Assembly (NCBI RefSeq): GCF_000025605.1
Contig: NC_013894.1
Span: 667,529-731,528 of the forward strand
From: Thermocrinis albus DSM 14484
GTDB lineage: Bacteria > Aquificota > Aquificia > Aquificales > Aquificaceae
Direction of reading: 5' to 3'
Length of the DNA: 64,000 nt
The notes beneath the pieces were generated by a model. The model did no database searches. It was not told where the DNA came from and worked only from the letters and a program-made list of their open reading frames with translations. Positions 9,497 through 27,207 of the stretch are shown here, piece by piece; position 1 is the first letter of the stretch; each line of letters opens with the position of its first letter. A program made the position numbers and the translations under genes.

Positions 9497-10214
9497 ACTC
9501 CACAACGAAGGGATCTGTGGATCGCAGGAAGTCCTCCCTGCTACCCGTAGCCACTACCTCGCCTTCTTTTAGGAGCATGAGGCGGTCCGATATACTGAAG
9601 GCAGATACAAGATCGTGAGAAACCACAACGGCTGTTGCTCCGGTTTTTTCCCTCAGATCCAAGATAAGTCTGTCTATCAGTCTACTGGTGATAGGATCTA
9701 GTCCCGACGTTGGCTCGTCGTATATGATGATCTTAGGTTCTGTGGCTATAGCCCTCGCTATTCCTACCCTCTTTCGCATACCACCCGACAGTTCGGAGGG
9801 GAAGAGATCCATGACCTCCTCCCCCAGACCCACCAATCTGAGTTTTTCCAAGGCTATCCTTCTGAGCTCCTCTTCCTTCATCTTACCGCGCTCTAAGTAG
9901 AAGAACACCACGTTTTCCCATACACGCAGACTGTCAAAGAGAGCAGCACCCTGGAAAACATACCCTATCTTCCTGCGCAGTTGGTCCAACCGTTGCGGAT
10001 TTAGAGAGTTTATATCCTCTCCGAATATCTTTACTATGCCCGCCGTGGGTTTCCAGAGACCTACCAAACACCTCGTTATGGATGTTTTTCCACTTCCGCT
10101 ACCACCTATTATGGTAAATATCTCTCCTTCTTTTACATAAAAGCTCACTCCCTTTAGTATCTCCCTTCCGTTGATAACCTTCCGAAGATCCTGTACCTCT
10201 ATAACCAAGTTCAT
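9447..10214 (-). CDS. MlaF-like ABC transporter ATP-binding protein (lipid transport)
   Basis: A 255-residue ABC ATPase with Walker A GGSGSGKTS, signature SELSGGMRKRVGIARAI, Walker B KIIIYDEPTSGLDP and the H-loop VVVSHD. The motif GGMRKRVGIARA and the length are typical of MlaF/Ttg2A, the ATPase of the Mla system that moves phospholipids between inner and outer membranes. No MlaE, MlaD or MlaB is adjacent in the window. The start overlaps the end of the FMN-barrel gene by 4 nt. Its 3' end runs 50 bp into the convergent cfa gene. Confidence 0.85.
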   Translation of the reverse strand: MNLVIEVQDLRKVINGREILKGVSFYVKEGEIFTIIGGSGSGKTSITRCLVGLWKPTAGIVKIFGEDINSLNPQRLDQLRRKIGYVFQGAALFDSLRVWENVVFFYLERGKMKEEELRRIALEKLRLVGLGEEVMDLFPSELSGGMRKRVGIARAIATEPKIIIYDEPTSGLDPITSRLIDRLILDLREKTGATAVVVSHDLVSAFSISDRLMLLKEGEVVATGSREDFLRSTDPFVVEFIQSGMLREIAETPSS

Positions 10215-11245: not shown

Positions 11246-11625
11246 TTATTCAGAGAGCTCTTTATTCTCTAATAGGATTATGAATTGTAACTAACTTTGT
11301 ACCATCTGGGAATGTCCCTTCCACTTGAACAATTTCAAGCATTTCAGGAACACCCTCCATAACATCCTCTTTTCTAAGAATTTTTGTTCCTAAATCCATA
11401 AGCTCTGCAACAGATTTTCCTTCTCTTATACCCTCAAGAATTTCACATGCTATAATGGCATATGCCTCAACATAATTTAATTTTAACCCTTTCTCTTTTC
11501 TTTTTTTAGCAAGCTCGGCAGCTACATATATTAAGAGTTTTTCAACCTCCCTTGGCGTGAGATTCATGCTAGCACCTCCTAAATATATATATATACTCTA
11601 AAATCTCTCCAATGTTTGTATCAGT
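11246..11625. repeat. Direct repeat A1 (380 bp) carrying ureA copy 1
   Basis: This block is nearly identical to 15800-16177: about five substitutions and a 2-bp slip in an AT run by eye. It contains all of ureA plus the last codons of a urtE-like gene. In this copy the AT slip destroys the urtE reading frame, and the match stops abruptly at TCAGT where an rpe fragment begins. The two copies bracket about 4.2 kb of unique sequence carrying the ureohydrolase and its ABC transporter. Confidence 0.95.
11262..11567 (-). CDS. ureA: Urease subunit gamma, copy 1
   Basis: A 101-residue protein with the complete urease gamma fold: [57 protein letters not shown] and [13 protein letters not shown]. It is identical in protein sequence to the copy at 15816-16121. 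The gamma subunit joins UreB and UreC in the nickel urease. It is separated from ureB/ureC by more than 9 kb, whereas ureABC are usually adjacent. It lies downstream of the ABC transporter genes and a truncated rpe piece, so it may be transcribed as the last gene of the ureohydrolase operon. A ribosome site (AGGAGG) lies about 5 nt before its start. Confidence 0.96.
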
Positions 11626-11779
11626 CTGCAAGCACCGGACAAAAGGTTATGTCTGGAACAAAACGCCCATCCATTACATCAAGATGGATAAGGTCTGCGC
11701 CACCCTTTACTACCGCTTCTACCTGCTCACCCAAATTCCAAGAGTCCGCAGAAAGCACAAAAAGCGCAAGAAACTTCAT
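11621..11779 (-). pseudogene. rpe: Truncated ribulose-phosphate 3-epimerase (rpe) fragment
   Basis: A 52-codon minus-strand frame begins at ATG 11779 and reads [20 protein letters not shown], then [20 protein letters not shown] and ITFCPVLAD. This is the N-terminal quarter of ribulose-phosphate 3-epimerase (SxLSAD, H-x-DVMDG-x-FVP). It ends at a TGA created at the junction with repeat A1. Complete enzymes are about 220 residues, so this is a broken piece captured by the rearrangement that duplicated ureA. It cannot be a working epimerase; a full rpe is presumably elsewhere in the genome. Confidence 0.85.
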
Positions 11780-11797
11780 AATTAGTATTATGTCCTG

Positions 11798-12634
11798 TTA
11801 TTTAGTTTCGTGCATGTGATCTATATCAGATTCATTTAAAGCTTTAAAGCTCTTTGACGAACCGCTTTTAAATAGGTAGTATGCTATCGTCCTTTTTATT
11901 TCTAAAAACTCTTCAGAAAATATGAAATTAACATCTATATCTTGGCATGACAGTTTGGATTTCAGATCTTTTAAATTGATATCTGCAATTACTCTTCCAG
12001 GATTATTACTAAGAACTATAACTCTATCACAAAGAAATGCTATTTCATCTAAATTATGAGAAACAATAATAAATATTGTATCCCTTACTTCCTCAAAAAG
12101 TTTTCTAAGTAGGTGCCAGCTATTTATAGCTGTGAACATATCCAAAGCACTTGATGGTTCATCAAGAAGTAAAACCTTTGGCGAAGTACATAAAGCTCTA
12201 CATAATGCAACTCTCTGTTTCAAACCACCAGAAAGTTCATGAGGGTAAGCGTTAAGCTTTTCTACTAGACCCAGAATCTCCATATAGTAGGTTACTCTTT
12301 CGTAAAGTGATGCGATCCTATGCTTAGGTAAGTTTAGTGTTCTAAGAGGAAATATAATATTCTCCTTTACAGTAAGCCATGGGAACAATCTGTAATCTTG
12401 GAACATGTATGCTACTTCTGGAGAAGGCTCTTTAACAATCCTATCACCAATGTAGACACAGCCTGAATCTGCTTTCTCTAGCCCCGCTATTATTTTTAAC
12501 AAAGTCGATTTTCCTGCCCCTGACTGCCCTATTATCCCAACAAACTCTTTATCGATAATATCAATACTTACATTTTCTAATACGGTTATCCCCATAAATT
12601 GCTTACTTACATTTTCCAATTTTACTAAACTCAT
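11798..12634 (-). CDS. NMT1/TauA-type ABC transporter, ATP-binding protein
   Basis: A 278-residue ABC ATPase of the nitrate/sulfonate/taurine class. Walker A GQSGAGKST, signature HELSGGLKQRVALCRAL, Walker B KVLLLDEPSSALDM and H-loop IIVSHNLDEIAFLCDRV are all intact. About 50 residues after the core (QDIDVNFIFSEEFLEIKR and onward) form an extension seen in some SsuB/TauB relatives. It overlaps the permease gene by 4 nt and is the third transporter gene after the ureohydrolase, so it should energise the same importer. The substrate is not readable; context argues for a nitrogen compound such as guanidine or a guanidino/amidino compound. Confidence 0.9.
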   Translation of the reverse strand: MSLVKLENVSKQFMGITVLENVSIDIIDKEFVGIIGQSGAGKSTLLKIIAGLEKADSGCVYIGDRIVKEPSPEVAYMFQDYRLFPWLTVKENIIFPLRTLNLPKHRIASLYERVTYYMEILGLVEKLNAYPHELSGGLKQRVALCRALCTSPKVLLLDEPSSALDMFTAINSWHLLRKLFEEVRDTIFIIVSHNLDEIAFLCDRVIVLSNNPGRVIADINLKDLKSKLSCQDIDVNFIFSEEFLEIKRTIAYYLFKSGSSKSFKALNESDIDHMHETK

Positions 12635-13395
12635 TTACTATTCCTCCTAAGATGTTTGAAAATAAGAGGCTTACTTACTCTGAAAAAAGAATCACTTAGT
12701 AAACCTATCAGACCTATGACTATTAAATAAGCATATATCATATCCATTTGTAGGAATCTCTGACTCTTAATTAATCTATATCCAAGTCCCTCATTTGCAG
12801 CTGCCACTTCCCCAACAAGAAGGTAAGTCCATGCCCATCCAAGATTTATCCTATATATATCCCACAAATTAGGCTTTATACCTTCTAAAATTATATGATA
12901 CAATATTTGATGTCTATTCATACCTAAAGATCTACCGACTTCTATGTATTCATAAGGGAAGTTCCTTATTTCGTTAGCTACCATCGCTATAACTTGAACA
13001 AAAACTCCTAAAAATATGAGAAATATTTTAGAAGTTTCCCCTATACCAAACCACATCAAAGTAAGAGGTAAAAACGCTGGTACTGGAAGATAACGGAAGA
13101 AATCATTTATGTAATCAAGTGGAGTAAACCACCTATAGTAGCTTACCAAAATGCCTATTATAGTCCCAGTCAAAATTGCTATGAGCCAACCAATTGTTAT
13201 TCTTATTATGCTTGTTTTAAGATCTGAGAATAGAAATCCTTCTTCAAATGCATTCAGTAGTGCCTTATAAATATCTATAAGAGAAGGGAACAGAGGGCTT
13301 TCAATCATTTTACTTGATATACTCCAAAGCATAAATATAAGTCCTACGTATATAAACAGTAGAAACAGGATTACATAATTATCTCTTTGTAGCAT
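12631..13395 (-). CDS. NMT1/TauA-type ABC transporter, permease
   Basis: A 254-residue inner-membrane protein with about six hydrophobic helices. The permease EAA-type loop is readable as EVGRSLGMNRHQILYHIIL followed by EGIKPNLWDIYRINLGWAW, as in SsuC/TauC/NrtB-type permeases. The start overlaps the substrate-binding gene by 17 nt and the stop overlaps the ATPase gene by 4 nt, indicating one operon. It should form the membrane channel for the importer fed by the neighbouring NMT1-like binding protein. Confidence 0.9.
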   Translation of the reverse strand: MLQRDNYVILFLLFIYVGLIFMLWSISSKMIESPLFPSLIDIYKALLNAFEEGFLFSDLKTSIIRITIGWLIAILTGTIIGILVSYYRWFTPLDYINDFFRYLPVPAFLPLTLMWFGIGETSKIFLIFLGVFVQVIAMVANEIRNFPYEYIEVGRSLGMNRHQILYHIILEGIKPNLWDIYRINLGWAWTYLLVGEVAAANEGLGYRLIKSQRFLQMDMIYAYLIVIGLIGLLSDSFFRVSKPLIFKHLRRNSK

Positions 13396-14353
13396 CTCTT
13401 ACCACCCTATCGTAGATTAAATTTGAAAGATTAGCTTCCTTGTTCGTAAAACCAAATTTAAGTAGATATTTATTTAGTAAATCGCCACTTCTATATAGGG
13501 AAAGTGGATTATTCTTATTCTCTGGATAAAGTGCGAGAGCGTTCTCTTGAACACCAAAGAATTTAATACCTTTAAGCATATACAATACGTCATCTTTCTT
13601 GATATTTAAAACTTTTGCCATTATGGATGCAGCCTCCGAAGGATTATTTTTTATAAACTCAACCGTTCTGAACCAAACTCTTGCAAGTTTTACATACTCA
13701 TTGTAATTTTTCTTAAGACTTTCTTCGTGAACAACAAGTATATCTGGTATTAATCCAGGTGTATCTTTTGAAGAGATTAATACGTGTGCTTGTTTAGATT
13801 TAACTATTCTACTTATCCACGGTTCCCAAACAGCAGCAGCGTCAACTTTGCCTTCAAGTAAAGCTACTGCGGCATCTTGTGTTGTCATGTTAATTATTTG
13901 AACATCTTTTTCCGTTAAACCGTATTTCTGTAGCACATACAGTAAGAAAAAGTGATCTATTGCACCTACCTCTACAGCAACCTTCTTTCCTCTAAGATCA
14001 TTAATTGTTTTTATATAATTTTTTGCAACTATAGCGTCGTTACCGTTGGAGTTATCGTTAACCAAAATAACCTTAATTTTCATTCCTTTAGAAGCTAACG
14101 GGATAGTATCGCTGAGAGTTTGCGAGTTAGCGTCAAGCTGCCCAGATGCGAATGCACTGATCGAGTCGCTATAAGTACTGAACCACACAAGCTCCACATT
14201 TATCCCTTCGCTTTTAAAAAATCCTTTTTCTTTTGCAATGTACCATGCAACCCAACCTGGCCAATCACTGACACCTAATTTAATAGGTCCTGCAAAACCT
14301 AAAGATGTGAGAATTAGTCCCATGATTATAGTTGTAAGGATTTCTTTTAGCAT
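13379..14353 (-). CDS. NMT1/SsuA-like ABC transporter substrate-binding protein
   Basis: A 324-residue periplasmic binding protein. A signal peptide is visible (LKEILTTIIMGLILTSLGFA then G). The mature N-terminus KLGVSDWPGWVAWYIAKEKG is typical of the NMT1/TauA/SsuA fold, followed by FASGQLDANSQTLSDTIPLA and GKVDAAAVWEPW. The ligand cannot be told from sequence. It starts 31 nt downstream of the ureohydrolase gene, on the same strand, with no terminator visible. As I recall, a similar binding protein-permease-ATPase set lies near the nickel-dependent guanidine hydrolase gene of Synechocystis, which supports a guanidine-type substrate here by analogy only. Confidence 0.88.
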   Translation of the reverse strand: MLKEILTTIIMGLILTSLGFAGPIKLGVSDWPGWVAWYIAKEKGFFKSEGINVELVWFSTYSDSISAFASGQLDANSQTLSDTIPLASKGMKIKVILVNDNSNGNDAIVAKNYIKTINDLRGKKVAVEVGAIDHFFLLYVLQKYGLTEKDVQIINMTTQDAAVALLEGKVDAAAVWEPWISRIVKSKQAHVLISSKDTPGLIPDILVVHEESLKKNYNEYVKLARVWFRTVEFIKNNPSEAASIMAKVLNIKKDDVLYMLKGIKFFGVQENALALYPENKNNPLSLYRSGDLLNKYLLKFGFTNKEANLSNLIYDRVVRDATKR

Positions 14354-14384: not shown

Positions 14385-15479
14385 TCATATGTTTTGGCTT
14401 TGACTTCTAGTTTCTGTTTTAGGTCTTACAGGTCTGCCTTCGGACCATCCTGCACGTTTTATGGCAAGTCCCCCCATTACTTCAAGAATAATTCTACTTG
14501 CGAACAGGGAGGTTATACCACCATTATATGAACTGTTATCGCTTACATCATACATCGGGGCAACTTCAAGGATATCAAAACCAAATCTTTCTACATCAAA
14601 GTGCTTAGTAATCAGTCTAATAAGCCCTATTGCTTCTCTTGGAGTTAAACCACCAGGCTCTGGTTCTCCCGTTCCAGGACAAACACTTGGGTCCATGACA
14701 TCAACATCGAAAGTTAACCATACAGCATCAGTTCCATCTAATGCCCTTTCTACAGCTATTTCAGCTATTTTCTTTATACCTATCTCCCATACATCAAAAG
14801 ATGTGAACCAGAGCATACCGTTGTCTCTCATCCATTCATATGTTTTTTTATCTGGCCAAAAACCACGTGGTCCTATAAGTGTATAATTTTCGCCATTTAG
14901 TATTCCAAGATCCCAAATTCTTCTTATATGTGCGCCGTGATCGTATTCAAATCCACATAGTCCAGTATGTGCTGTATCTGCATGACAATCAAAATGAATA
15001 AGCCCTATTTTTTTATAACCCCTAGCCTCTGCCCAACCTTTTATGTTAGCGAATGTTACAGAGTGATCGCCTCCAATTATGAATGGACATATGCCTAGAC
15101 TCGAGACTTCATAAACTTTCCTCTCGAAGTTTTTTAGTGTAGCCATGGTATCTCCGGGAACAACACGAGCATCTCCGTGATCAACTACAAAAAACTCATC
15201 AAAAGGATCTACACCTGTTTCGATATTAAAGTGAGAATATGGTGGAGAGGGGACTGTAGATGCAGCTCTTACAGCCCTAGGGCCATATCTAGCTCCCGGT
15301 CTTATAGTCGTAGCCATATCCATAGGTTCTCCGATTATTGCAATATCTGGTTTTAGCTTAGCCAATTCTTCGATAGATGGCACATAAGGTAATTTTAGAA
15401 AAGTAGGTATTCCTGTAAATATTGGCTCATTTACATCTTCAAAACGCTCTCCATAAAACATCCTACCTTTACCAGGCAT
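14385..15479 (-). CDS. Ureohydrolase (agmatinase family; guanidine hydrolase candidate)
   Basis: A 364-residue arginase/agmatinase-superfamily enzyme. Dinuclear-metal ligands are present: GGDHS (H139), HFDCHADT (D164, H166, D168) and FDVDVMDP (D258, D260). The family cleaves guanidino groups to release urea. The length, with an extra N-terminal region of about 40 residues, is longer than typical SpeB agmatinases (about 300) and nearer the guanidine hydrolase (GdmH, Sll1077-like) branch. A Cys sits in the usual DAH position (DCH). It leads an operon with an ABC importer behind a sigma54 promoter, beside urea transport and urease genes, so the urea product would be used locally. Agmatine or guanidinobutyrate remain possible substrates. 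Confidence 0.85.
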   Translation of the reverse strand: MPGKGRMFYGERFEDVNEPIFTGIPTFLKLPYVPSIEELAKLKPDIAIIGEPMDMATTIRPGARYGPRAVRAASTVPSPPYSHFNIETGVDPFDEFFVVDHGDARVVPGDTMATLKNFERKVYEVSSLGICPFIIGGDHSVTFANIKGWAEARGYKKIGLIHFDCHADTAHTGLCGFEYDHGAHIRRIWDLGILNGENYTLIGPRGFWPDKKTYEWMRDNGMLWFTSFDVWEIGIKKIAEIAVERALDGTDAVWLTFDVDVMDPSVCPGTGEPEPGGLTPREAIGLIRLITKHFDVERFGFDILEVAPMYDVSDNSSYNGGITSLFASRIILEVMGGLAIKRAGWSEGRPVRPKTETRSQSQNI

Positions 15480-15520: not shown

Positions 15521-15536
15521 TGCAAACTTCATACCT
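15521..15536 (-). promoter_or_regulatory. Sigma54 (-24/-12) promoter of the ureohydrolase operon
   Basis: On the minus strand the sequence AGGTATGAAGTTTGCA places GG and GC exactly 10 nt apart, as in the RpoN consensus TGGCACG-N4-TTGCA; only the first T and the C of GGCA deviate. It lies about 42 nt before the start codon, and AGGAGG precedes that start. A palindromic candidate activator site lies about 108 bp upstream. Confidence 0.75.
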
Positions 15537-15643
15537 AAAATAAAAGTACATAGAGTAGAGCTCCTAAAACTTAGAAATTCTGTTTTGAACTGTGTAGCTT
15601 AATAATACGATAATTGCATACAAAAGAACAAAATTTACAATCT

Positions 15644-15799: not shown

Positions 15800-16177
15800 T
15801 TATTCAGAGAGCTCTTTATTCTCTAATAGGATTATGAATTGTAACTAACTTTGTACCATCTGGGAACGTCCCTTCCACTTGAACAATTTCAAGCATTTCA
15901 GGAACACCCTCCATAACATCCTCTTTTCTAAGAATTTTTGTTCCTAAATCCATAAGCTCCGCAACAGATTTTCCTTCTCTTATACCCTCAAGAATTTCAC
16001 ATGCTATAATGGCATATGCCTCAACATAATTTAATTTTAACCCTTTCTCTTTTCTTTTTTTAGCAAGCTCGGCAGCTACATATATTAAGAGTTTTTCAAC
16101 CTCCCTTGGTGTGAGATTCATGCTAGCACCTCCTAAATATATATATACTCTAAAACCTCTCCAATGTTTGTGTCAGT
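15800..16177. repeat. Direct repeat A2 (378 bp) carrying ureA copy 2
   Basis: This is the partner of 11246-11625. Here the block is continuous with the intact 3' end of urtE, so this is probably the original context and the other copy the derived one. The spacing between copies is 4554 bp. Homologous recombination between them would delete the ureohydrolase and its transporter and leave one ureA. Confidence 0.95.
15816..16121 (-). CDS. ureA: Urease subunit gamma, copy 2
   Basis: Identical over all 101 residues to the protein at 11262-11567, with the same urease gamma motifs. It starts 11 nt after urtE stops and has AGGAGG as ribosome site, so it is the sixth gene of the urtABCDE operon. The arrangement couples urea import to one urease subunit, while ureB and ureC are transcribed divergently about 5 kb away. 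Silent differences from copy 1 are few, so the duplication is recent or is kept alike by gene conversion. Confidence 0.97.
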
Positions 16178-16849
16178 TTTAGCAGCTTCTTTTAAAATAC
16201 TGCCATTATCGATTACATAAACTCTATCTATAAGTTCCCATATAAGTTCTAACCTATGTTCTACAATTACAAATGAAATTCTGAACCTCTCCCTTATTTC
16301 GTACAATACCTTTAATATAAGTTGAACTATAGATGGCTGAATTCCTTCAAATGGTTCGTCCAATAGTAAGATCTTTGGATTTGTTAGTAATGCTCTTGCT
16401 AAGGATACTAACTGTTGTTCCCCTCCAGATAAAGATCCAGCTGTTTTATTTAACAATCCTATTAGACTGGGGAAAAGGCTTAAGATGTAATCAAAATAGT
16501 CATAAAAATTTGGAAAAATAGTATGCTTTTTAGCTGTAAAAGCGTTTTTTGCCGTAAAAAGGTTTTCTTTTACAGTAAGATATGGAAATAGCTTTCTACC
16601 TTGAGGAACATAACCTAGCCCCAATCTTACTCTCTCATAAGGCTTTAACTTGTTAATATTCTTACCATAAAAGTATATACTACCGTCTATGACTTTATTT
16701 AACCCTAATATAGTTCTTAATAAAGTTGTTTTACCTGCACCATTTCTTCCTATAAGCAAAATACTTTCCGAATCTTTAATACTAATATTAATATCTTTAA
16801 GTATTATGGCAGACTTATATCCGGAATATAAAGATTTTAATTCTAGCAT
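16133..16849 (-). CDS. urtE: Urea ABC transporter ATP-binding protein UrtE
   Basis: A 238-residue LivF-like ATPase. Walker [14 protein letters not shown], signature [17 protein letters not shown], Walker [18 protein letters not shown] and H-loop [12 protein letters not shown] are present; the FEGIQPSIV segment is characteristic of UrtE. It is one of two ATPases of the high-affinity urea importer UrtABCDE. It overlaps urtD by 7 nt. Its last codons lie inside direct repeat A2. Confidence 0.93.
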
Positions 16850-17586
16850 CTCTCTACCCCCAAATAAATTCTCTTAACCTCATTATCCGAACGGATTTCA
16901 TCAAAAGTACCAGTTCTTAGTATTTTTCCTTGATGCATAAAAGTTACTCTTGCCTCAAATTTCTCACAAATCATTCTTAAAAAATCCATATTATGGTCCA
17001 CAATAATAATAGATGAATTTCTTTTAATAAAATACCCTATTATATCAATCAATTTGTATATATCCTTTAGTGTCAAACCAATAGCAGGTTCATCAAGAAG
17101 AACTAAATCGCAATCGTTTGTAAGTATCATAGCAAGCTCTAACCACTGTTTTTCTCCATGTGAAAGTTCTTTTGCTAAGTCATATCTTCTTTCATGAAGA
17201 CCAACTAACTCTAATATATCCTTTATCTTGTTGTGATCTACCGGTGCAAACGTTCCTGAAACGTTCTTTTTCACCGAAGCTAATATGAGATTATCCCATA
17301 CTGATAAACTTTCAATTACATTTGGCGTTTGAAATTTCCTTATAATCCCCATCCTTGCGATTTTATGTATCGGTAATTTACTTATAACTGTATTTTTGTA
17401 ATAAATATCTCCGTAGCTAGGTTTGACTGTACCGGAGATCGCATCAAGCAACGTAGTTTTCCCCGCTCCATTAGGACCTATAAGCACCCTTAATTCCCCC
17501 TGGCTGATACTTAGAGAAACTCTATCTAGAGCAGTAAAATTTCCATATTTAACGGTTACATTTCTAACTTCTAAAAGCGCTCTCAT
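16843..17586 (-). CDS. urtD: Urea ABC transporter ATP-binding protein UrtD
   Basis: A LivG-like ATPase with Walker [19 protein letters not shown], the segment IRKFQTPNVIESLSVWDN, signature KELSHGEKQWLELAMIL, Walker B VLLDEPAIGLT and H-loop IIIVDHNMDFLR. The variant signature LSHGEKQWLE is typical of UrtD. A longer frame opens at 17640, but the start at 17586 has GGAGG five nt upstream, giving 247 residues beginning MRALLEVRN. It overlaps the end of urtC by 23 nt. Confidence 0.93.
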   Translation of the reverse strand: MRALLEVRNVTVKYGNFTALDRVSLSISQGELRVLIGPNGAGKTTLLDAISGTVKPSYGDIYYKNTVISKLPIHKIARMGIIRKFQTPNVIESLSVWDNLILASVKKNVSGTFAPVDHNKIKDILELVGLHERRYDLAKELSHGEKQWLELAMILTNDCDLVLLDEPAIGLTLKDIYKLIDIIGYFIKRNSSIIIVDHNMDFLRMICEKFEARVTFMHQGKILRTGTFDEIRSDNEVKRIYLGVERC

Positions 17587-18631
17587 GTTTGCCTCCATAT
17601 ATAAATTTTGTAAATCTTGTAAGCAGTTTTTTAAGTTCATTTATATTATTACCGACAAGTATTATAACAATGTAAGCTATACCTATAAAATATAGCCAAA
17701 AGTTAGGAAAGTAACTGCTTATTTTGTCTTTTATTAAATTAATGCCAATAACTGAGAGAACAACTGCCAGAAAGTTTTCTCTACCAGCCAAAGCAACCCA
17801 TAAAATCATTTCTATAGAAGCCATAACTCCTACCAAAGATGGGGAAATGGAACCATTGAAAAGGGTAAAAAGTGCACCACCTATGCCAGCCAAAGTGCCA
17901 GATATTGCAAATACAATGATCTTAAAGTAAACTGTATTATAACCAAAGAATTTTAATCTATTCTCATTATCTCTAATAGCCCTTATGAGCTTTCCAATCC
18001 TAGAATTTTCTACTATAAATGATAGTAAAATTAAGGAAAACACTATAAACTCTGTAATAAAGAGGAGCCCTCGCTGAAAACCATTATCTCCTATATACCA
18101 AATGAGAAAAGGGCCAAAGTTAGTAAGACCATTAAATCCTCCAGTATAAGGTTGCAAACTTATTAAAAGTATCTCAAATATTGCTACAGCTGCCTGACTG
18201 ATAAGGGCAAAATATACACCACTTATTTCTCTTTTAAACATAATATAGGAAAAAACAACAGCCAGCAGTGTTGGGATTAAGAAGATTGTCATAAATACAA
18301 ATACTATATTGCTAAAAGGTTGCCACCACCATGGCAGTGTTGTTAAACCACTCCATAACATAAAGTCTGGAAGGTCACCAGAAGGTGTTGCTTTAAGCTT
18401 AAGATGCATGGCCATTGCATAAGCACCTAATCCGAAGAAAAGTCCTTGTCCTAAGGACAAGATATTCATGTGCCCCCAAATCCAAGAAATGCCTATAGCA
18501 ACTATCGCAAGAGAAAGATATTTACCTAAAATGACTATATAGTAGTCTGGAAGAGCTGGAGTAATGCTTAAAAATACCATAAATAGGAAAAGTGTATAAA
18601 TATAATTTTTATTTTTCTTCAATATCCACAT
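17564..18631 (-). CDS. urtC: Urea ABC transporter permease UrtC
   Basis: A 355-residue LivM-like permease with about ten hydrophobic helices. The features WGHMNILSLGQGLFFGLGAY, LTNFGPFLIWYIGDNGFQRG and RAIRDNENRLKFFGYNT fit UrtC of urea importers. A GGGGTAAAGG ribosome site lies before ATG 18631. It follows urtB closely and overlaps urtD. With UrtB it forms the inner-membrane channel. Confidence 0.92.
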   Translation of the reverse strand: MWILKKNKNYIYTLFLFMVFLSITPALPDYYIVILGKYLSLAIVAIGISWIWGHMNILSLGQGLFFGLGAYAMAMHLKLKATPSGDLPDFMLWSGLTTLPWWWQPFSNIVFVFMTIFLIPTLLAVVFSYIMFKREISGVYFALISQAAVAIFEILLISLQPYTGGFNGLTNFGPFLIWYIGDNGFQRGLLFITEFIVFSLILLSFIVENSRIGKLIRAIRDNENRLKFFGYNTVYFKIIVFAISGTLAGIGGALFTLFNGSISPSLVGVMASIEMILWVALAGRENFLAVVLSVIGINLIKDKISSYFPNFWLYFIGIAYIVIILVGNNINELKKLLTRFTKFIYGGKHESAFRS

Positions 18632-18636
18632 ATCCT

Positions 18637-19521
18637 TTACCCCCTTATCTTAACAGATATAAGCCCAGTTGGTCTAAACTGAATAAATAAGATAACAGAC
18701 ATAAGCACCAAAGCTTTGGCAAGACTAACTTCCATATATCCACTAAAAATAGCAGACATAAAGCCTATGATAATAGATCCAAGAAGTGTCCCACCCAAAC
18801 TACCTACACCGCCGAAAATTACAACTAAGAAAGCGTCTACTATATAACTCATCCCTGTAGTAGGTGTAATAGAAGAAACCATTGATAAAGCAGAACCACC
18901 AGCACCGGCAATACCCGAACCTAATGCAAAAATAAGTAGATTAACTAAATCATCGTTTATTCCCATGGCTGAGGCCGTCTCACGATCTTGAGCAACAGCT
19001 CTGAGATTAAGACCAAGATCGGTTTTAAAAAATAGCAGATAAAGCAGCAGAAGAACAAAGAGCATTACCACTATAATATAAATGCGAACAACTGGTATAT
19101 AAACACCACCTAAATAGAGTGTGGTAGATAGCCACTTAGGTGGTACTACTCCTACTCCTGTTGGACCAAAAGCATCTCTAACTAGTTGTTGAAGTATAAG
19201 ACTAAGTCCCCAGGTCAAAAGAATAGTGTCTAAAGTATTTTGAACTCTCTTTAAAATTAGGTACCAAAAAACTAGTCCAAATATAAATAGTACTATAAAA
19301 GAAAAGAAGATTGAAAAAAGTGGAAAAACTGCTTCTGGAAAAATATTACTTTGCTGTACTATATAAGAAATATAACCTCCTAACATAAGGAATTCGCCGT
19401 GTGCCATATTAATTATTCTCATATATCCAAATGATAGACTTAAACCTATGGCTATCATAAAGTAAATTGACGCAAGACTCAGTCCGTTGAAAAGTTGGTT
19501 TAAGAAGAAATCCGTATCCAT
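18637..19521 (-). CDS. urtB: Urea ABC transporter permease UrtB
   Basis: A LivH-like permease with multiple hydrophobic helices. Typical UrtB/LivH segments are visible: GLSLSFGYMRIINMAHGEFL, RAVAQDRETASAMGIN, ALGSGIAGAGGSAL and FLVVIFGGVGSLGGTLLGS. The frame is open to 19578 and would overlap urtA by 41 nt; the ATG at 19521 (MDTDFFLNQLFNGLSLAS) gives a conventional N-terminus and no overlap, so I prefer it. It is 6 nt from urtC. Confidence 0.92.
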   Translation of the reverse strand: MDTDFFLNQLFNGLSLASIYFMIAIGLSLSFGYMRIINMAHGEFLMLGGYISYIVQQSNIFPEAVFPLFSIFFSFIVLFIFGLVFWYLILKRVQNTLDTILLTWGLSLILQQLVRDAFGPTGVGVVPPKWLSTTLYLGGVYIPVVRIYIIVVMLFVLLLLYLLFFKTDLGLNLRAVAQDRETASAMGINDDLVNLLIFALGSGIAGAGGSALSMVSSITPTTGMSYIVDAFLVVIFGGVGSLGGTLLGSIIIGFMSAIFSGYMEVSLAKALVLMSVILFIQFRPTGLISVKIRG

Positions 19522-19537
19522 GGTAAGCCCCACGATG

Positions 19538-20752
19538 TTATAAAACACATTTCTTTCCGGGAAAAACAAGTTTGTCATAAGGTTCAGGTTCTATAGGTTT
19601 TCCTGAAGACCAAACTATAGAGAACTGCCCATCTGAACCGAGTTTTCCTATATAAGCTGTTTGATATAAACTTTGATTTTTTGCTATCTTTATTTTTCCA
19701 AATGGAGAATCCACCCATGGAAGTTCTGTTGCAGCTTTTCTAACCATCATAGGGTCAAAAGTTCCAGCCTTTTCTACAGCCATTTTCCATAAATAGACAT
19801 TCATATATCCATGAGCCATCGGATCAGTTATAAGGGAGGATTTACCGTATTTCCCTTGATACGCCTTTATAAATTCCAAATTAGCTTTATTGTTAAGACT
19901 CATAAAGTAATTCCACGCAGCATAACTTCCTTCTAAAAGAGGTATTCCAATTGCTTTTGCTTCTTGTTCAGCAATGCTAAAGGAAATTACTGGAAGCACT
20001 TTAGGACCAACACCTGCTGCAGCCATTTGCTTGAAGAAAGCCACATTTGAATCACCGTTTATAGTATTAAAAACTATGTCTGGTTTTGTGTTTATGATTT
20101 TATTAACAACTGCGCTAAAATCTGTTCCTCCTAAGGGTACATACTCTTCCCCACTAACTATAGCACCATTTTTCTGAATATGCTTCTTTAATATCAGGTT
20201 TGCTGTTCTTGGAAAAACATAATCCGAACCTACTAAAAAGAACTTTTTGTAACCTTGCTTTAAAGCCCATTCAAGTGCTGGTAATATTTGTTGATTCGGT
20301 TGTGCTCCTGTATAGATAATGTTAGGAGAACATTCATTACCTTCAAATTGTACAGGATACCACAATAGATTTTTATATCTTTCAAAAACAGGAAGCATAG
20401 CTTTCCTGCTTGCCGATGTCCATCCGCCAAAAACAGTCACAACCTTATCCATAAGTATTAACTTCTGTGCCTTTTGTGCAAATGTTGCTGGGTCGGATGC
20501 CCCATCTTCAATTATAGGTTCAATAGTGTATCCCAATACACCACCTTTTCTGTTTATTTCTTCTATAGCTAATAAAGTTGCATTTTTAACATGAACCTCA
20601 CTTATAGCCATCGTGCCAGAAAGAGAGTGCAACACTCCAACTTTGATTTTTTTAGGTGAAGGCCAAACTAAGGCCGGTGCTATAGTATGCAGGGTTATTA
20701 CAGCTGCACTTGCCTTAATAAAATCTCTTCTGTTTGCATACCCGCTTTTCAT
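19538..20752 (-). CDS. urtA: Urea ABC transporter substrate-binding protein UrtA
   Basis: A 404-residue periplasmic binding protein of the Leu/Ile/Val-binding fold. The N-terminus has a Tat-type signal (NRRDFIKASAAVITLHTIA). Motifs that fit UrtA are KVGVLHSLSGTMAISE, VFGGWTSASRKAMLPVFE, NLLWYPVQFEGNECSPN, IYTGAQPNQQILPALEW and TDPMAHGYMNVYLWKMAVE. It captures urea for UrtBCDE. It leads the operon behind a sigma54 promoter and is divergent from ureB. Confidence 0.94.
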   Translation of the reverse strand: MKSGYANRRDFIKASAAVITLHTIAPALVWPSPKKIKVGVLHSLSGTMAISEVHVKNATLLAIEEINRKGGVLGYTIEPIIEDGASDPATFAQKAQKLILMDKVVTVFGGWTSASRKAMLPVFERYKNLLWYPVQFEGNECSPNIIYTGAQPNQQILPALEWALKQGYKKFFLVGSDYVFPRTANLILKKHIQKNGAIVSGEEYVPLGGTDFSAVVNKIINTKPDIVFNTINGDSNVAFFKQMAAAGVGPKVLPVISFSIAEQEAKAIGIPLLEGSYAAWNYFMSLNNKANLEFIKAYQGKYGKSSLITDPMAHGYMNVYLWKMAVEKAGTFDPMMVRKAATELPWVDSPFGKIKIAKNQSLYQTAYIGKLGSDGQFSIVWSSGKPIEPEPYDKLVFPGKKCVL

Positions 20753-20798: not shown

Positions 20799-20814
20799 AG
20801 CAAACAACGTGCCC
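20799..20814 (-). promoter_or_regulatory. Sigma54 promoter of the urtABCDE-ureA operon
   Basis: The minus strand reads GGGCACGTTGTTTGCT, matching TGGCACG-N4-TTGCT at all but the first base, with GG-GC spacing of 10 nt. It lies about 47 nt before the urtA start. The candidate activator palindrome is only about 39 bp upstream, closer than at the other promoters. Confidence 0.78.
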
Positions 20815-20852
20815 TGCACTTTTCATTTTTAATTATTCAATAATGAACATAA

Positions 20853-21012: not shown

Positions 21013-21372
21013 ATGGTACCGGGAGAGATATTTGTAGATGATGGAGAAATAACCCTCAATGCTAATAGAAAAACTATAAAGTTACTCGTTAAGAATGTTG
21101 GGGACAGACCTATACAAGTTGGATCCCATGCTCATTTTTTTGAAGTTAATAAGTACTTAAAATTTGACAGAGAGAAAGCTTACGGTTATAGGCTAAATAT
21201 ACCTGCTGGTACTGCAGTAAGGTTTGAACCTGGAATGGCCAAAGAAGTAGAACTCGTAGAGTTTGGTGGTAAAAGAATTGTTTACGGTTTTAATGCATTA
21301 GTTAGCGGGTTTCTAGAAGAAAAGAGGGAAGAGGCTATGCAAAAAGCAAAAGAAAGGGGGTTTTTGTCATGA
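21013..21372 (+). CDS. ureB: Urease subunit beta
   Basis: A 119-residue protein matching urease beta: [59 protein letters not shown] and [20 protein letters not shown]. It packs with UreC and UreA in the (ABC) trimer. The gene starts behind a sigma54 promoter with a strong ribosome site and overlaps ureC by 4 nt. The gamma subunit gene that normally precedes it is absent here and lies in the urt and ureohydrolase operons. Confidence 0.97.
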
Positions 21373-23072
21373 GGATATCTAAACAATCTTATGCCAGACT
21401 TTATGGTCCAACAAAAGGTGACAGAATAAGGTTAGGTGATACAAATTTGATAATAGAAGTTGAGGAAGATTTCAATTTGTACGGTGAGGAAGTTTGTTTT
21501 GGTGGAGGGAAAGTTATAAGGGATGGTATGGGTCAATGTCAACTTTCGCGAAAGGATGGTACTCCTGATTTAGTTATAGTAGGTGCTGTAATCGTAGATT
21601 ATTGGGGCATAGTAAAGGCTGATGTAGGAATAAGAGATGGAAAGATAGTTGCCATAGGTAAAGCTGGAAATCCAAATATTCAAGATGGTGTGACCCCTGG
21701 CTTGGAAATAGGTCCATGTACGGAAGTTATTGATGCACGAGGGAAAATACTAACAGCAGGGGGTATTGATTGCCATGTACATTTTATATGTCCTCAACAA
21801 ATATGGGAAGCTCTTTATAGTGGTATAACCACAATGATTGGTGGAGGCACAGGACCTACAGAAGGTACCAAGGCAACCACATGTACACCAGGACCGTGGA
21901 ACATAATACATATGCTAAAGGCTTTAGAAGCTTTTCCAATGAACTTTGGACTTCTCGGGAAAGGAAATTCATCTTTACCTTCCCCCCTTATAGAGCAAAT
22001 AGAAGCTGGGGCAATGGGATTAAAAATTCACGAAGATTGGGGGGCAACTCCAGCGGTTATAGATTGCGCTCTTACGGTGGCGGATGAATACGATATACAA
22101 ATAGCGATACATACTGATACTTTAAATGAGTGTGGTTATGTTGAAGATACGATCAAGGCCTTTAAAGGAAGAACCATTCATACATATCATTCAGAAGGTG
22201 CAGGCGGAGGACATGCACCCGATATAATGAAAGTGGTTTCTCATATAAATGTTTTGCCTTCTAGTACTAACCCTACTATGCCGTATACCGTAAACACATT
22301 TGATGAGCATTTTGATATGTTAATGGTGTGTCATCACCTATCTCCAAATATACCAGAGGACGTAGCTTTTGCGGAATCCAGAATAAGACCAGAAACAATG
22401 GCTGCGGAGGATGTACTTCACGATATAGGGGCTATTTCTATGATGTCCAGTGATTCGCAGGCCATGGGGAGGGTAGGAGAGGTAATAATTAGAACATGGC
22501 AAACTGCCCATAAAATGAAGGAAGAAAGGGGTAAACTTCCGGAGGATTCGGATAGAAATGATAATTTCAGAGTAAAGAGATATATCAGTAAATACACAAT
22601 TAATCCAGCGATAGCCTTTGGTATAGCTGAGTACGTTGGTTCAGTAGAGGTAGGGAAAATTGCTGACCTTGTTATATGGGATCCAAAATTCTTTGGCGTT
22701 AAACCCGACTTGGTAATAAAGGGTGGAATGGTGGTTGCGTCATTAATGGGAGATCCAAATGCTTCAATTCCTACACCTCAACCTGTACTTTACAGACCCA
22801 TGTTTGCTTCGTTTGGTAGTGCAGTTAACAAGGTTTCTGCATTCTTTGTTTCTCAAGTATCCTTAGAAAAAGGTTGGATAGATGATCTAAAAAGACCATT
22901 ACTTCCAGTAAGAAAAACAAGAGTAATATCAAAAAAAGACATGATATTAAATGATGCATTACCTAACATAAAGATAGATCCAGAAACCTACAAAGTTTAC
23001 ATCGATGGTGAACTTATAACGAGTAAGCCAGCCAAAAGCTTACCCCTAACTCAGCGATATTTCCTATTCTAG
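21369..23072 (+). CDS. ureC: Urease subunit alpha (catalytic)
   Basis: A 567-residue nickel urease catalytic subunit. Active-site elements are intact: nickel ligands [11 protein letters not shown] (H136, H138), the carbamylated lysine in [10 protein letters not shown] (K219), [29 protein letters not shown], the mobile-flap cysteine in MVCHHLSP (C321, H322) and SSDSQAMGR. It hydrolyses urea to ammonia and carbamate in the cytoplasm. Length is normal for the family. It overlaps ureB by 4 nt, and ureE follows after 10 nt. Confidence 0.98.
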
Positions 23073-23082
23073 GAGGAACTCA

Positions 23083-23547
23083 ATGAGGAGAGTGTTTGTT
23101 TATGAAATACCAAATGTAACCAATGAACAGTTAAGTGCATACAACATAAAGGAAATTAAGCTTTCGTATTATGAAAGACAAAAAGTAAGACAGAAGATAA
23201 AAATAGAGGAAGAACTAGAGATAATTATAATTCTAAAAGATAGAACACATATAAGACCATTTAGTTATATCTATATAGATTCCAGCAGCAAAACAGCATA
23301 TAAAGTGGTACCACTGGAGGAGGAATGCTTAGTTATAGAAGTTGATGCCCCATTGTCCTATTTATTGTTAGGGCACATATTAGGTAATATGCACCTTCCA
23401 ATAGGTATCTGGGAGAATAAAGTTACCACGATATTTGATCCTACTGTTGAATATAGGTTAAATAAATACGGTTTTAAGACAAATAGATTGATAGTCCCCT
23501 TTGTGGAACTTTCGGAACATACAGAGCATATGCATTCACATGGATAG
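23083..23547 (+). CDS. ureE: Urease accessory protein UreE (nickel chaperone)
   Basis: A 154-residue protein with the UreE N-terminal domain and a peptide-binding C-terminal domain, including YLLLGHILGNMHLPIGIWE, which contains the conserved nickel-binding GNxH. The C-terminus ends in a short His-rich tail (HTEHMHSHG), less extended than in Klebsiella UreE. It delivers nickel to the apo-urease complex. AGGAGG precedes the start; the stop overlaps ureF by 8 nt. Confidence 0.93.
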   Translation: MRRVFVYEIPNVTNEQLSAYNIKEIKLSYYERQKVRQKIKIEEELEIIIILKDRTHIRPFSYIYIDSSSKTAYKVVPLEEECLVIEVDAPLSYLLLGHILGNMHLPIGIWENKVTTIFDPTVEYRLNKYGFKTNRLIVPFVELSEHTEHMHSHG

Positions 23548-24208
23548 TAGGGTATACGATCAACTTAATTACATTCTTGCACTATTTGATAGTCAATTTC
23601 CCGTTGGTGCTTTTGCTTTTTCATGGGGACTTGAATCATTTGTTTCCGATAAATCTGATAAATTAACACTCGAGAAACTTGTAGATGCGTATATTAAGGA
23701 AGGGCCATTACATCTTGAACTTTTTTCTTGCAAGCTATCTTACGAGTATAGCGACTGCATAGAATGCTTAAAGTGTGTAAATGATTATGTAAGTGCATTT
23801 AAGATTTTACCTTCTGTGTATGAGCCATCCGTTAAGATAGGAAGGAACCTCATAAAGGCTAGTAAAGAAATACTAAATGTGGAATTTCCTTATAATGAAG
23901 TTAAAGACCCACACTTTTCTGTGGTTTTAGGTTATGTTGGAGCCACACTTAATATAAAGTTGGACCTATTACTATTCTCTTTTGCTCATAGTAACATAAA
24001 AAATTTACTTAGCTCACTCATGAGATGTATCCCATTGTCACCTTATGAAGCATGGAAGACGCTGTTGACGTCGTACAAAAAGCTGAAAGATGAAATAAAT
24101 AGAATACTCTTGTATCAAGATTGGGATCAAATTTTTGTAAATACTTTCCTTTGGGACATTCACTCTTTTAGGCAAAGGTTTTTAGAAACTCGGCTTTTTG
24201 AAGGATGA
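23540..24208 (+). CDS. ureF: Urease accessory protein UreF
   Basis: The hallmark SQFPVGAFAFSWGLESFV lies near the N-terminus, as in UreF, followed by an all-helical domain. A longer frame begins at 23501, but ATG 23540 (MDSRVYDQL) gives the standard UreF N-terminus and overlaps ureE by only 8 nt. The product is about 222 residues. UreF acts with UreD and UreG to insert nickel and form the carbamylated lysine. ureG and ureD are encoded on the opposite strand nearby. Confidence 0.93.
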   Translation: MDSRVYDQLNYILALFDSQFPVGAFAFSWGLESFVSDKSDKLTLEKLVDAYIKEGPLHLELFSCKLSYEYSDCIECLKCVNDYVSAFKILPSVYEPSVKIGRNLIKASKEILNVEFPYNEVKDPHFSVVLGYVGATLNIKLDLLLFSFAHSNIKNLLSSLMRCIPLSPYEAWKTLLTSYKKLKDEINRILLYQDWDQIFVNTFLWDIHSFRQRFLETRLFEG

Positions 24209-24249: not shown

Positions 24250-25788
24250 ATGAAGGAGAAGAAAGGGCTAAACGAGATATATTATCTTTTCCATAATACA
24301 ATAAGTTTAATTGAACATATAAATGCTAACATATATGTTAAAAATCGTTCTGCAGACGCCTTCTTAATAGAGTCTATAGCAACTGTATTTGAATACTTTG
24401 GGTACGATAACCTCCTCCTTTTTAATGAAAATCAAGGTTTCTATGAGTTAGTTCTTTATATAAAGAATGGAGAGATAAAGCAGGATAAAATTAGGTTAGA
24501 TAAGAAATTTTTTAAAGGAATTGATGCTTTTAAAAGCGTCCAATTCTTTGAGTATTATAGCCCTATATGTGAATTCCTTTCTCGGGAAGGATTAATAGAA
24601 TTAAGGGAAAATGTTAAGGTATTCATTAAGACATTTCATTCAAGCAGAAAATGGATAGCCATATTAGTATCCTATAAAAAATTTACAAGCATTCCAGTGT
24701 ATATTGATAAAATGATTTTAGACGCTTCTTTTATGTTTATAGAAAAGCTTTATAAAACACATATGGAATATTCATCTGAAATAGATATTTATAGAACAGA
24801 GCTGGAAAATTTAGCAAAATTTACTGCAGAAGTATACACTAAAGATTTTATCAAATATAATGATGCTTTTTTAGAGAAAATAGCAAAAACGGATGTAAAT
24901 ATATTGATCGAAGGAGAAACAGGAACTGGAAAATCCACTCTTGCATATAGAATTCACAACCTAAGTCATAGAAAAGATAAACCTTTTAAAGAATTATTTG
25001 AAGCAGAGCTTTTTGGATACGAAAAAGGTGCTTTTACAGGTGCAAGCATATCAAAAAAAGGAAGGTTGGAAATAGCCAACGGAGGTACTGTCTTTTTTGA
25101 TGAAATAGGGGATATACCTATTGAATTTCAGACCAAGCTATTAAGACTATTACAAGAAAAAAAATTTTCCAAACTCGGTGGACTGAAAGATATATATGTA
25201 GATATAAGATTTATTTTTGCTACTAATAAAAATTTAGATAAGTTGGTCAAAGAAGGGTTGTTTAGACAAGATTTGTATTACAGGATAAATACTATAAGAT
25301 TAAAACTGCTACCTTTTAGAGATAGAACAAGTAAAGAAAAAAGAGAAATAGTAGATAGGATAATAGAAAAACTGACTAAAAAGTATAACAAATCACTGTC
25401 TATAGACAACGAAGTTTACAAGTTCATCGAAGAACATCATTGGCCAGGTAATATAAGAGAACTGGAAAATGTTCTTGAATATGCAGCAATTCTATCGGAA
25501 GACGGAGTTATTAAATTGAATCACCTTCCACAATGGGTTATCACTGAATATATTGAAAGCAAGAATACCACGGATTATGTAATTGAAACACACAAAGGCC
25601 ATGGATTAACTTTCAAGGATATAAAGAAGTTAGAAATGGAAGCCATCATTGATGCACTTCTGACTACAAACTTTAACGTATCAAAAGCTGCTTTAAAACT
25701 AGGTATTTCGCGCAGACAACTTGAGTATAGAATAAAAAAATACAATATAATAGAGGATATTACTAAAAAAATTCGGAAAAATGAATAA
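24250..25788 (+). CDS. Sigma54-dependent enhancer-binding regulator
   Basis: A 512-residue activator. Residues 1-200 are an unrecognised sensory region. The AAA+ core has Walker [11 protein letters not shown] (222-229), the sigma54-contact loop GAFTGA (260-265), Walker B VFFDEIGD (284-288) and [11 protein letters not shown] with the arginine finger region. A Fis-type HTH ends the protein ([20 protein letters not shown]). About nine residues normally found after PF (V-x-x-NCA-x-x-P) are absent: [20 protein letters not shown] runs straight on. It follows ureF by 41 nt, with a TATAAT-like element just upstream. Context makes it the likely activator of the island promoters. Confidence 0.9.
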
Positions 25789-25795
25789 AAAGAAA

Positions 25796-26602
25796 TCATA
25801 AAAACGCACTACTCATCGTGTACCATGGTATACTTTGTAAGTATTTTTCATTTCGCCATGAATCTATTAAATCAATAACTCTTTTAGCAAGAATAAAATT
25901 GCTATTTGACAATCCTTTAATAAAAGCTAAACCTCTGTGATTGGTTCCATAAATTAATATAAAGTCTTCATGTTCTTCTATATTTTCTCCTAAATTTAAG
26001 AATGTCCATACTCCCGAAATCATATATTTAAAGCGACCAATAATCCCTATATGTTTAGCAGTATGTTGACTTATAGAGAAGTTTTCAATATAAATTGGTA
26101 TTGATTGTTTAAAGATTTTTAAGTTATTGTTTATGCAGTTAAAGGACAAATATTCTCCACGTTCAATTCTGCCCATGCTCCACATCTCAAAGAAACCAAA
26201 ATTTGCCGATGAAGAAAGATATACATTAATTTTCTGAAGAAATCTGCTTCCTTCAAAAGGTATATTTATACCTGGATAGTACTCGAGTATTGCATTGTCA
26301 TCTATGTAAATGTTATAGAACTGCATGGATATTTCATCATTTTCAGATTTCAAGATTTTTGTTGCGCTCTGATTTAATAAAATTACATGACAATCTTTTC
26401 CAACATTTACTTCTATCTCTAGTTCATCACCTGCATGTATGCCTGCACCAATCGTGATGATCTGAGTAATGAGACAATTACCTATATAAAAAGGTTTCAA
26501 TATCCTTGCAGAACCTGTTTGAAAATTTCTTGTTAAAGTTGTTTTCCCAGATATTTCCTTGAATTCCATAATTAATTTATGCTTCACCATAATTATAATC
26601 AA
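25796..26602 (-). CDS. ureD: Urease accessory protein UreD (UreH)
   Basis: A 268-residue protein with the UreD pattern: [71 protein letters not shown] and [20 protein letters not shown]. It is the scaffold on which UreF and UreG assemble with apo-urease for nickel insertion. The start is uncertain (Met1, Met5 or Met12 are all in frame). It overlaps ureG by 4 nt and its stop lies 7 nt from the convergent regulator gene. Confidence 0.92.
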
Positions 26603-27207
26603 TCTATAAATAATATTTCTTTCTCAATCCATGTAATTACTGGAATTATGCTTTCTTCTTCTTTTAGACTAACGAAAAAATACGGTTTGTTTTTTCTCTT
26701 TTCTTCTGTATATTTTCTCATAATTTCAAGATTTACTCCTACATAAGGAGCAAGATCAATCTTATTTATAATAAGTATATCACTTTGAGTTATACCTGGA
26801 CCACCTTTTTTAGGTATTTTCTCTCCTTCTGCAACATCTATTACATATATTACGCTATCCACAAGTATAGGGCTGAACGAGGCTGCTAGGTTATCCCCTC
26901 CAGATTCTATAAAAATAATATCAAGGTCCTTGAACTTACTAATTAGTCTATCAACTGCCTCTAAGTTAATAGAAGGATCTTCCCTTATCGCAGTATGTGG
27001 ACACCCGCCTGTCCTCACTCCTATTATTCTATCTTCTTCTAAAACACCACGTTTTATAAGGTATTCAGCGTCCTCTGTTATATATACATCGTTTGTAATT
27101 ACCGCTATTGAATATTTATCTTTCATAAATTTACACAGCACTTCAATAAGAGTTGTTTTCCCAGAACCTACAGGACCACCTACACCTATTCTAACTGGTT
27201 TTTGCAT
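26599..27207 (-). CDS. ureG: Urease accessory GTPase UreG
   Basis: A 202-residue SIMIBI GTPase. P-loop [17 protein letters not shown], metal-binding [17 protein letters not shown] (the CPH motif), [20 protein letters not shown] and the base-recognition motif [11 protein letters not shown] are present. It couples GTP hydrolysis to nickel delivery to urease. It begins 11 nt downstream of the porin gene and overlaps ureD, so porin, ureG and ureD form one operon under the porin promoter. Confidence 0.97.

Follow-up and report, generated by a model that had tools for sequence, protein, structure and literature searches.

A candidate guanidine hydrolase of a Glu-type ureohydrolase lineage in the urease island of Thermocrinis albus

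The protein encoded at positions 14385-15479 of a 64-kb stretch of DNA (referred to below as the window) from the hot-spring bacterium Thermocrinis albus is a member of the ureohydrolase (arginase) superfamily. We propose, with a probability of roughly 70%, that it is a guanidine hydrolase belonging to a second, Glu-type lineage within the part of the superfamily that contains GdmH, the Ni-dependent guanidine hydrolase of Synechocystis (Sll1077; PDB 7ESR, 7OI1). We favor this reading because the best sequence and Foldseek matches of the protein are two proven guanidine hydrolases, and because two unrelated transporters that accompany enzymes of its subfamily, an ABC importer and a symporter, both trace to guanidine operons. 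Against it stand the replacement of the GdmH residue Trp305 by Glu, the absence of a guanidine riboswitch at this locus and its relatives, and a binding protein that is not of the GdmH-operon type and that has similar counterparts next to other "agmatinase" genes.

Gene organization and putative regulation

The ureohydrolase gene corresponds exactly to an open reading frame identified in a sequence-only reading of this DNA (Table 1). It is separated by 31 bp from the downstream binding-protein gene, and the permease and ATPase genes come next, with overlapping ends. The short gap and the overlaps led us to treat the four genes as one operon, which agrees with the earlier assignment of an NMT1-type importer to the same transcription unit. 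The surroundings of urease and urea uptake genes described in that reading were also borne out: urtABCDE, two copies of ureA, ureBC, ureE, ureF, ureG, and ureD are all present, and a porin gene lies in the same neighborhood. UrtB and UrtC exceeded their NCBIfam cut-offs, UrtD and UrtE were the best NCBIfam matches of their genes, and UrtA matched Peripla_BP_5 (473 bits).

Table 1. Features of the T. albus window discussed in the text, in order of position
Feature	Position	Strand	Remarks
ureA (urease gamma), copy 2	11262..11567	-	Inside the 380-bp duplicated block 11246-11625; 3' of the importer operon
ABC importer ATPase	11798..12634	-	NCBIfam SaoA/NtrCD-like; shares 4 bp with the permease gene
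ABC importer permease	12631..13395	-	NCBIfam SaoP/TauC-like; overlaps the binding-protein gene
NMT1/SsuA-type binding protein, proposed guanidine-binding	13379..14353	-	TIGR01728 over cut-off, TIGR03427 second; DxSxGxD motif
Ureohydrolase, proposed Glu-type guanidine hydrolase	14385..15479	-	364 aa; Pfam Arginase PF00491, 242 bits
Sigma-54-like (-24/-12) promoter TAGGTATGAAGTTTGCA	15521..15537	-	58 bp 5' of the ureohydrolase start
ureA, copy 1	15816..16121	-	TIGR00193, 160 bits; adjoins urtE
urtE, urtD, urtC, urtB, urtA (urea ABC importer)	16133..20752	-	Family matches
Sigma-54-like promoter	20799..20815	-	5' of urtA
ureB, ureC (urease)	21013..23072	+	Urease_beta, Urease_alpha
ureE, ureF	23083..24208	+	UreE_C; ureF from position and similarity to relatives
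Sigma-54-dependent activator, candidate island regulator	24250..25788	+	Sigma54_activat, 184 bits; HTH_8
ureD, ureG (nickel insertion)	25796..27207	-	UreD, CobW/HypB/UreG

The second ureA gene is part of a direct repeat. The two copies of a 380-bp block (11246-11625 and 15800-16177) are 98.2% identical, contain the end of urtE, the entire ureA gene, and 16 bp of downstream sequence, and flank the ureohydrolase-ABC operon. Because direct-repeat copies lie on both sides of it, the operon could be gained or lost through recombination. The second ureA block abuts the remnant of a ribulose-phosphate 3-epimerase gene, truncated to 52 codons from the 5' end (11625-11780, minus strand); with only 64% identity to the intact gene elsewhere in the genome, the remnant was not recently copied from it.

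When both strands of the window were scanned for sigma-54-like promoters, only two sites had at least 10 of 13 matches, one preceding the ureohydrolase gene and the other preceding urtA. Comparable GG-N10-GC sites lie 54 and 57 bp before the ureohydrolase start in two relatives, so each of the three Aquificaceae genomes with the operon has a sigma-54-like site in front of it. The presence of such sites before both the operon and urtA, together with an activator gene in the island, suggests that the ureohydrolase operon and urea uptake are under joint nitrogen control. The activator lacks about nine residues (VVIDCSTIP) that are found in two relatives ahead of a sequence motif; the gap could be an in-frame deletion, which might impair the protein, or a sequence error. 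No guanidine riboswitch was detected in the window at gathering or relaxed thresholds, and none was detected in seven Aquificaceae and haloarchaeal loci by a search in which the upstream regions of GdmH operons were positive.

Active site, fold, and phylogenetic position of the enzyme

All six metal ligands of the ureohydrolase pattern (HxxxDxHxD...DxD) are present in the T. albus protein (H139, D164, H166, D168, D258, and D260), as are T58, which corresponds to T97 of GdmH, and the general catalytic residues (H181 and E305). Among solved relatives, the highest sequence scores were obtained with GdmH (7esr, 208 bits; about 35% identity over the domain) and the guanidinase of Nitrospira inopinata (9fek, 190 bits); guanidinobutyrase (166 bits), proclavaminate amidinohydrolase (161 bits), guanidinopropionase (149 bits), and Escherichia coli SpeB (122 bits) scored lower. 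The same two guanidine hydrolases were the best matches when an AlphaFold model of the T. albus protein was searched with Foldseek, and the N. inopinata enzyme, which has the same metal ligands, ranked first (35% identity, TM 0.78). With a mean pLDDT of 81, the model is usable at the level of the fold, but its active-site loops are too uncertain to support an argument from pocket shape.

The resemblance to GdmH extends to the ureohydrolase fold, the operon with an ABC importer, and the presence of urease in the genome, but there are also clear differences. The position of W305 in GdmH is occupied by Glu272 in the T. albus enzyme (PGTG-E-PEPGG), an Arg within the FDxHxD motif is replaced by Cys165, and the T. 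albus protein has loop inserts at residues 76-85 and 315-321. Ahead of the conserved EPIFTGIPTFLKLP start the protein has only about 16 residues, compared with roughly 60 in GdmH-type enzymes, and the N-terminus is a few residues longer than that of guanidinobutyrase or proclavaminate amidinohydrolase; the "N-terminal extension" noted earlier is therefore not GdmH-like. Unlike GdmH, the T. albus enzyme has neither a riboswitch nor adjacent HypA and HypB genes. Nickel chaperone genes are likewise not adjacent in N. inopinata, whose guanidinase differs from the T. albus protein in possessing the Trp (W313), an APC permease in place of the ABC importer, and a guanidine-I riboswitch. No HypA or HypB gene was found at the T. 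albus ureohydrolase locus, and one HypA gene is located elsewhere in the genome; by analogy with GdmH and given the co-occurring urease, nickel would be a plausible metal for the enzyme, although neither the urease nor the HypA gene proves it.

A published rule defines an "inferred guanidinase" by the Thr and Trp residues (T105, with H222, and W313 in N. inopinata numbering; PMC11410670). The T. albus enzyme has the Thr and the His (T58 and H181), but the Thr also occurs in guanidinopropionase and so is not specific, and Glu272 is found in place of the Trp (305 in Synechocystis, 313 in N. inopinata). As the Trp is missing, the rule classes the protein as "not guanidinase." Guanidinobutyrase (3NIO), guanidinopropionase (3NIP), and proclavaminate amidinohydrolase (1GQ6) share with the T. 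albus enzyme the superfamily, the short N-terminus, and the PGTGxPxxGG loop, but they carry Thr within this loop, in contrast to the Glu of T. albus. Our guess is that Glu272 and the two loops inserted specifically in this clade (residues 76-85 and 315-321, approximately) stand in for Trp305 by closing a small cationic pocket.

The replacement of Trp by Glu could instead make space for a substituent. The substrate would then be a small guanidino compound closely related to guanidine, for example methylguanidine, dimethylguanidine, or guanidinoacetate, which the enzyme would split into urea and an amine and which both the importer and the symporter would take up. There is precedent for this in the metformin and dimethylguanidine hydrolases, which are GdmH-related, nickel-dependent ureohydrolases that accept substituted guanidines (PMC11399263). 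These enzymes (MefH and DmgH) showed 26-29% identity to the T. albus protein in Foldseek alignments; they are heteromers of two ureohydrolase subunits, whereas T. albus has a single gene. We regard a substituted substrate as unlikely, in view of the transporter kinships described below.

Close homologues of the enzyme were found in two other Aquificota genomes among 136 (83-85% identity) and in 14 of 194 sampled haloarchaeal genomes (58-65% identity). Glu occupies the Trp305 position in the T. albus enzyme and in all 40 rows of this type that were examined. The search for related loci was seeded with the patterns HFDCHAD and NEPIF; Glu272 lies outside the seeds, but the invariance of Cys165 is in part a matter of ascertainment because HFDCHAD contains it. 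In a tree of 41 sequences, the Aquificaceae and haloarchaeal enzymes formed a clade of their own (support 100/100) within a larger clade that includes GdmH (100/97). An exclusive clade of Glu-type enzymes and GdmH was neither supported nor rejected by the AU test (p = 0.09). The separate clade and the Trp-to-Glu replacement rule out membership of the GdmH clade itself. Two side observations concern related genes: a member basal to the GdmH clade, on an Embleya plasmid (L071), has Thr at the Trp305 position and keeps HFDRH, and a haloarchaeal contig (L042) encodes a second, different ureohydrolase (GTGTPEPGG, HLDAHSD; 8742-9734, minus strand) about 2 kb from its Glu-type gene.

The haloarchaeal homologues are automatically annotated as "agmatinase family protein," and the T. 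albus enzyme scores highest against the agmatinase family of NCBIfam, albeit under the cut-off. We therefore considered a role in polyamine or arginine metabolism, as an agmatinase or guanidinobutyrase whose location near urease would be incidental. AU tests rejected the grouping of the Glu-type enzymes with SpeB-type agmatinases (p = 0.006) and with the tested guanidinobutyrases and guanidinopropionases (Gbu/Gpu; p = 5e-8), so on phylogenetic grounds the enzyme is neither. Urease genes provide a further argument against this explanation. The urease alpha gene is present in 3 of the 136 Aquificota genomes, which are exactly the three that have the Glu-type enzyme, and the agmatinase-like genes of other Aquificota are distinct from it and occur where urease is lacking. 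Urease was present in each of the 25 enzyme-carrying haloarchaeal genomes that we searched; in the sample of 194, urease was found in 14 of 14 genomes with the enzyme, compared with 57 of 194 overall, although p-values for this comparison are no more than indicative because the species are related. As the operon also includes a dedicated importer with kin in guanidine operons, we consider a role in polyamine or arginine metabolism quite improbable. The earlier proposal of a guanidine hydrolase instead of an agmatinase thus gains from the phylogeny and from the two unrelated transporters linked to guanidine operons, but its placement of the enzyme in the GdmH family does not stand, and the T. 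albus protein is no GdmH orthologue.

Transporters associated with the Glu-type enzymes

We searched 72,556 plasmids with tblastn for relatives of the T. albus binding protein. The three closest (52%, 45%, and 39% identity) are encoded with urea carboxylase and UAAP1/UAAP2, or with UAAP1/UAAP2-like open reading frames where the plasmid sequence examined ends, an arrangement of genes that is characteristic of the guanidine carboxylase pathway (PMC12186494). A guanidine-I riboswitch lies immediately 5' of two of the three (L079, 83.7 bits; L084, 67.8 bits), and riboswitches of this class also precede the genes of more distant kin (L090 and L091). The closest plasmid relatives of the binding protein are thus found in guanidine operons, two of the three under riboswitch control, as expected for a guanidine ABC importer. 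Like T. albus, the guanidine carboxylase operons encode an SsuA-like protein, a permease, and an ATPase, and the binding proteins share the motifs DxSxGxD and PGLIxD; unlike them, T. albus combines the importer with a ureohydrolase and urease and not with guanidine carboxylase, UAAP1/2, and allophanate hydrolase. A binding protein of the GdmH-operon type was excluded: the T. albus protein scored 134.9 bits on TIGR03427 (the GdmH-operon importer family), below the cut-off of 333.9, and the GdmH-operon binding proteins scored 525-536. A tree of the three concatenated importer genes was star-like, and a single clade of the Aquificaceae and the three guanidine carboxylase importers was weakly rejected (p = 0.039), which leaves the binding protein as the main basis of the kinship.

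It is very unlikely, in our judgment, that operon logic is misleading here and that importer and enzyme handle different substrates, as would be the case for a sulfonate or nitrate importer next to an unrelated ureohydrolase. The binding protein does exceed the cut-off of the broad SsuA_fam, and proteins 31-36% identical to it occur in other Aquificota that have no ureohydrolase. However, the importer trio lies directly 3' of the ureohydrolase gene in all three Aquificaceae genomes, binding proteins at the 62-63% level are confined to those genomes, and the DxSxGxD motif, which the T. albus protein has in common with the GdmH-operon binding proteins, is absent from E. coli SsuA.

At the haloarchaeal loci, no ABC importer adjoins the enzyme gene; a sodium:solute symporter lies beside it in 31 of 32 loci. 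Within the sample of 194 genomes, the symporter is present in 13 of the 14 enzyme-carrying genomes and missing from the remaining 180. It has only two close non-haloarchaeal relatives on plasmids (59% and 49% identity; the next are near 27%), and both adjoin Trp-type GdmH genes, in Rubrobacter indicoceani and Nonomuraea. The GdmH gene of R. indicoceani has a guanidine-I riboswitch in front of it and is followed by genes for formamidase and urease. The pairing of one symporter with either enzyme type is what would be expected if the Glu-type and Trp-type enzymes do the same job. The formamidase gene (fmdA) near the Trp-type GdmH of R. indicoceani (L068) has a counterpart in Haloarcula marismortui (L028), where fmdA lies near the gene for the Glu-type enzyme. 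In all 32 haloarchaeal loci (L027-L064), the gene immediately upstream of the enzyme gene, of about 350 codons, encodes an AbrB/MazE-type regulator, which may respond to guanidine or nitrogen.

These kinships also bear on the possibility of a substituted substrate. Binding proteins similar to that of T. albus are found beside other agmatinase-family genes, where they likewise carry DxSxGxD (L083), and on a metformin plasmid, which would suit a substituted guanidine; on the other hand, several of the nearest importer relatives and one of the symporter relatives are under guanidine-I riboswitches, which respond to guanidine. The latter observation favors guanidine itself, which is probably the substrate of the enzyme.

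Proposed pathway and its implications

We consider it likely that the T. albus genes constitute a guanidine pathway of import, hydrolysis, and urease action equivalent to that of GdmH. Guanidinium would cross the outer membrane through a porin and be taken in by the NMT1/SsuA-type ABC importer, whose inward direction of transport is presumed. The dinuclear-metal enzyme would convert guanidinium to urea and ammonia, and the adjoining nickel urease would release two further ammonia molecules and CO2 from the urea. The sigma-54 promoter and the linked activator would presumably induce the operon jointly with urea uptake. With slightly less confidence, we suggest that the Aquificaceae and haloarchaeal guanidinases owe their selectivity to Glu272 and the two inserted loops and not to the Trp of GdmH, and that they are served by an ABC importer in the former and a Na+/guanidine symporter in the latter.

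A limited literature search returned no account of an archaeal guanidinase or of a Glu-type subfamily. If our reading is correct, biological guanidine degradation reaches the Archaea and near-boiling water, and haloarchaea and hyperthermophilic Aquificaceae use guanidine as a nitrogen source. The rule based on Thr and Trp would overlook the entire Glu-type group. The haloarchaeal symporters would represent a candidate family of Na+/guanidine symporters, and the two enzyme types would provide a natural comparison of the routes by which ureohydrolases arrive at guanidine specificity.
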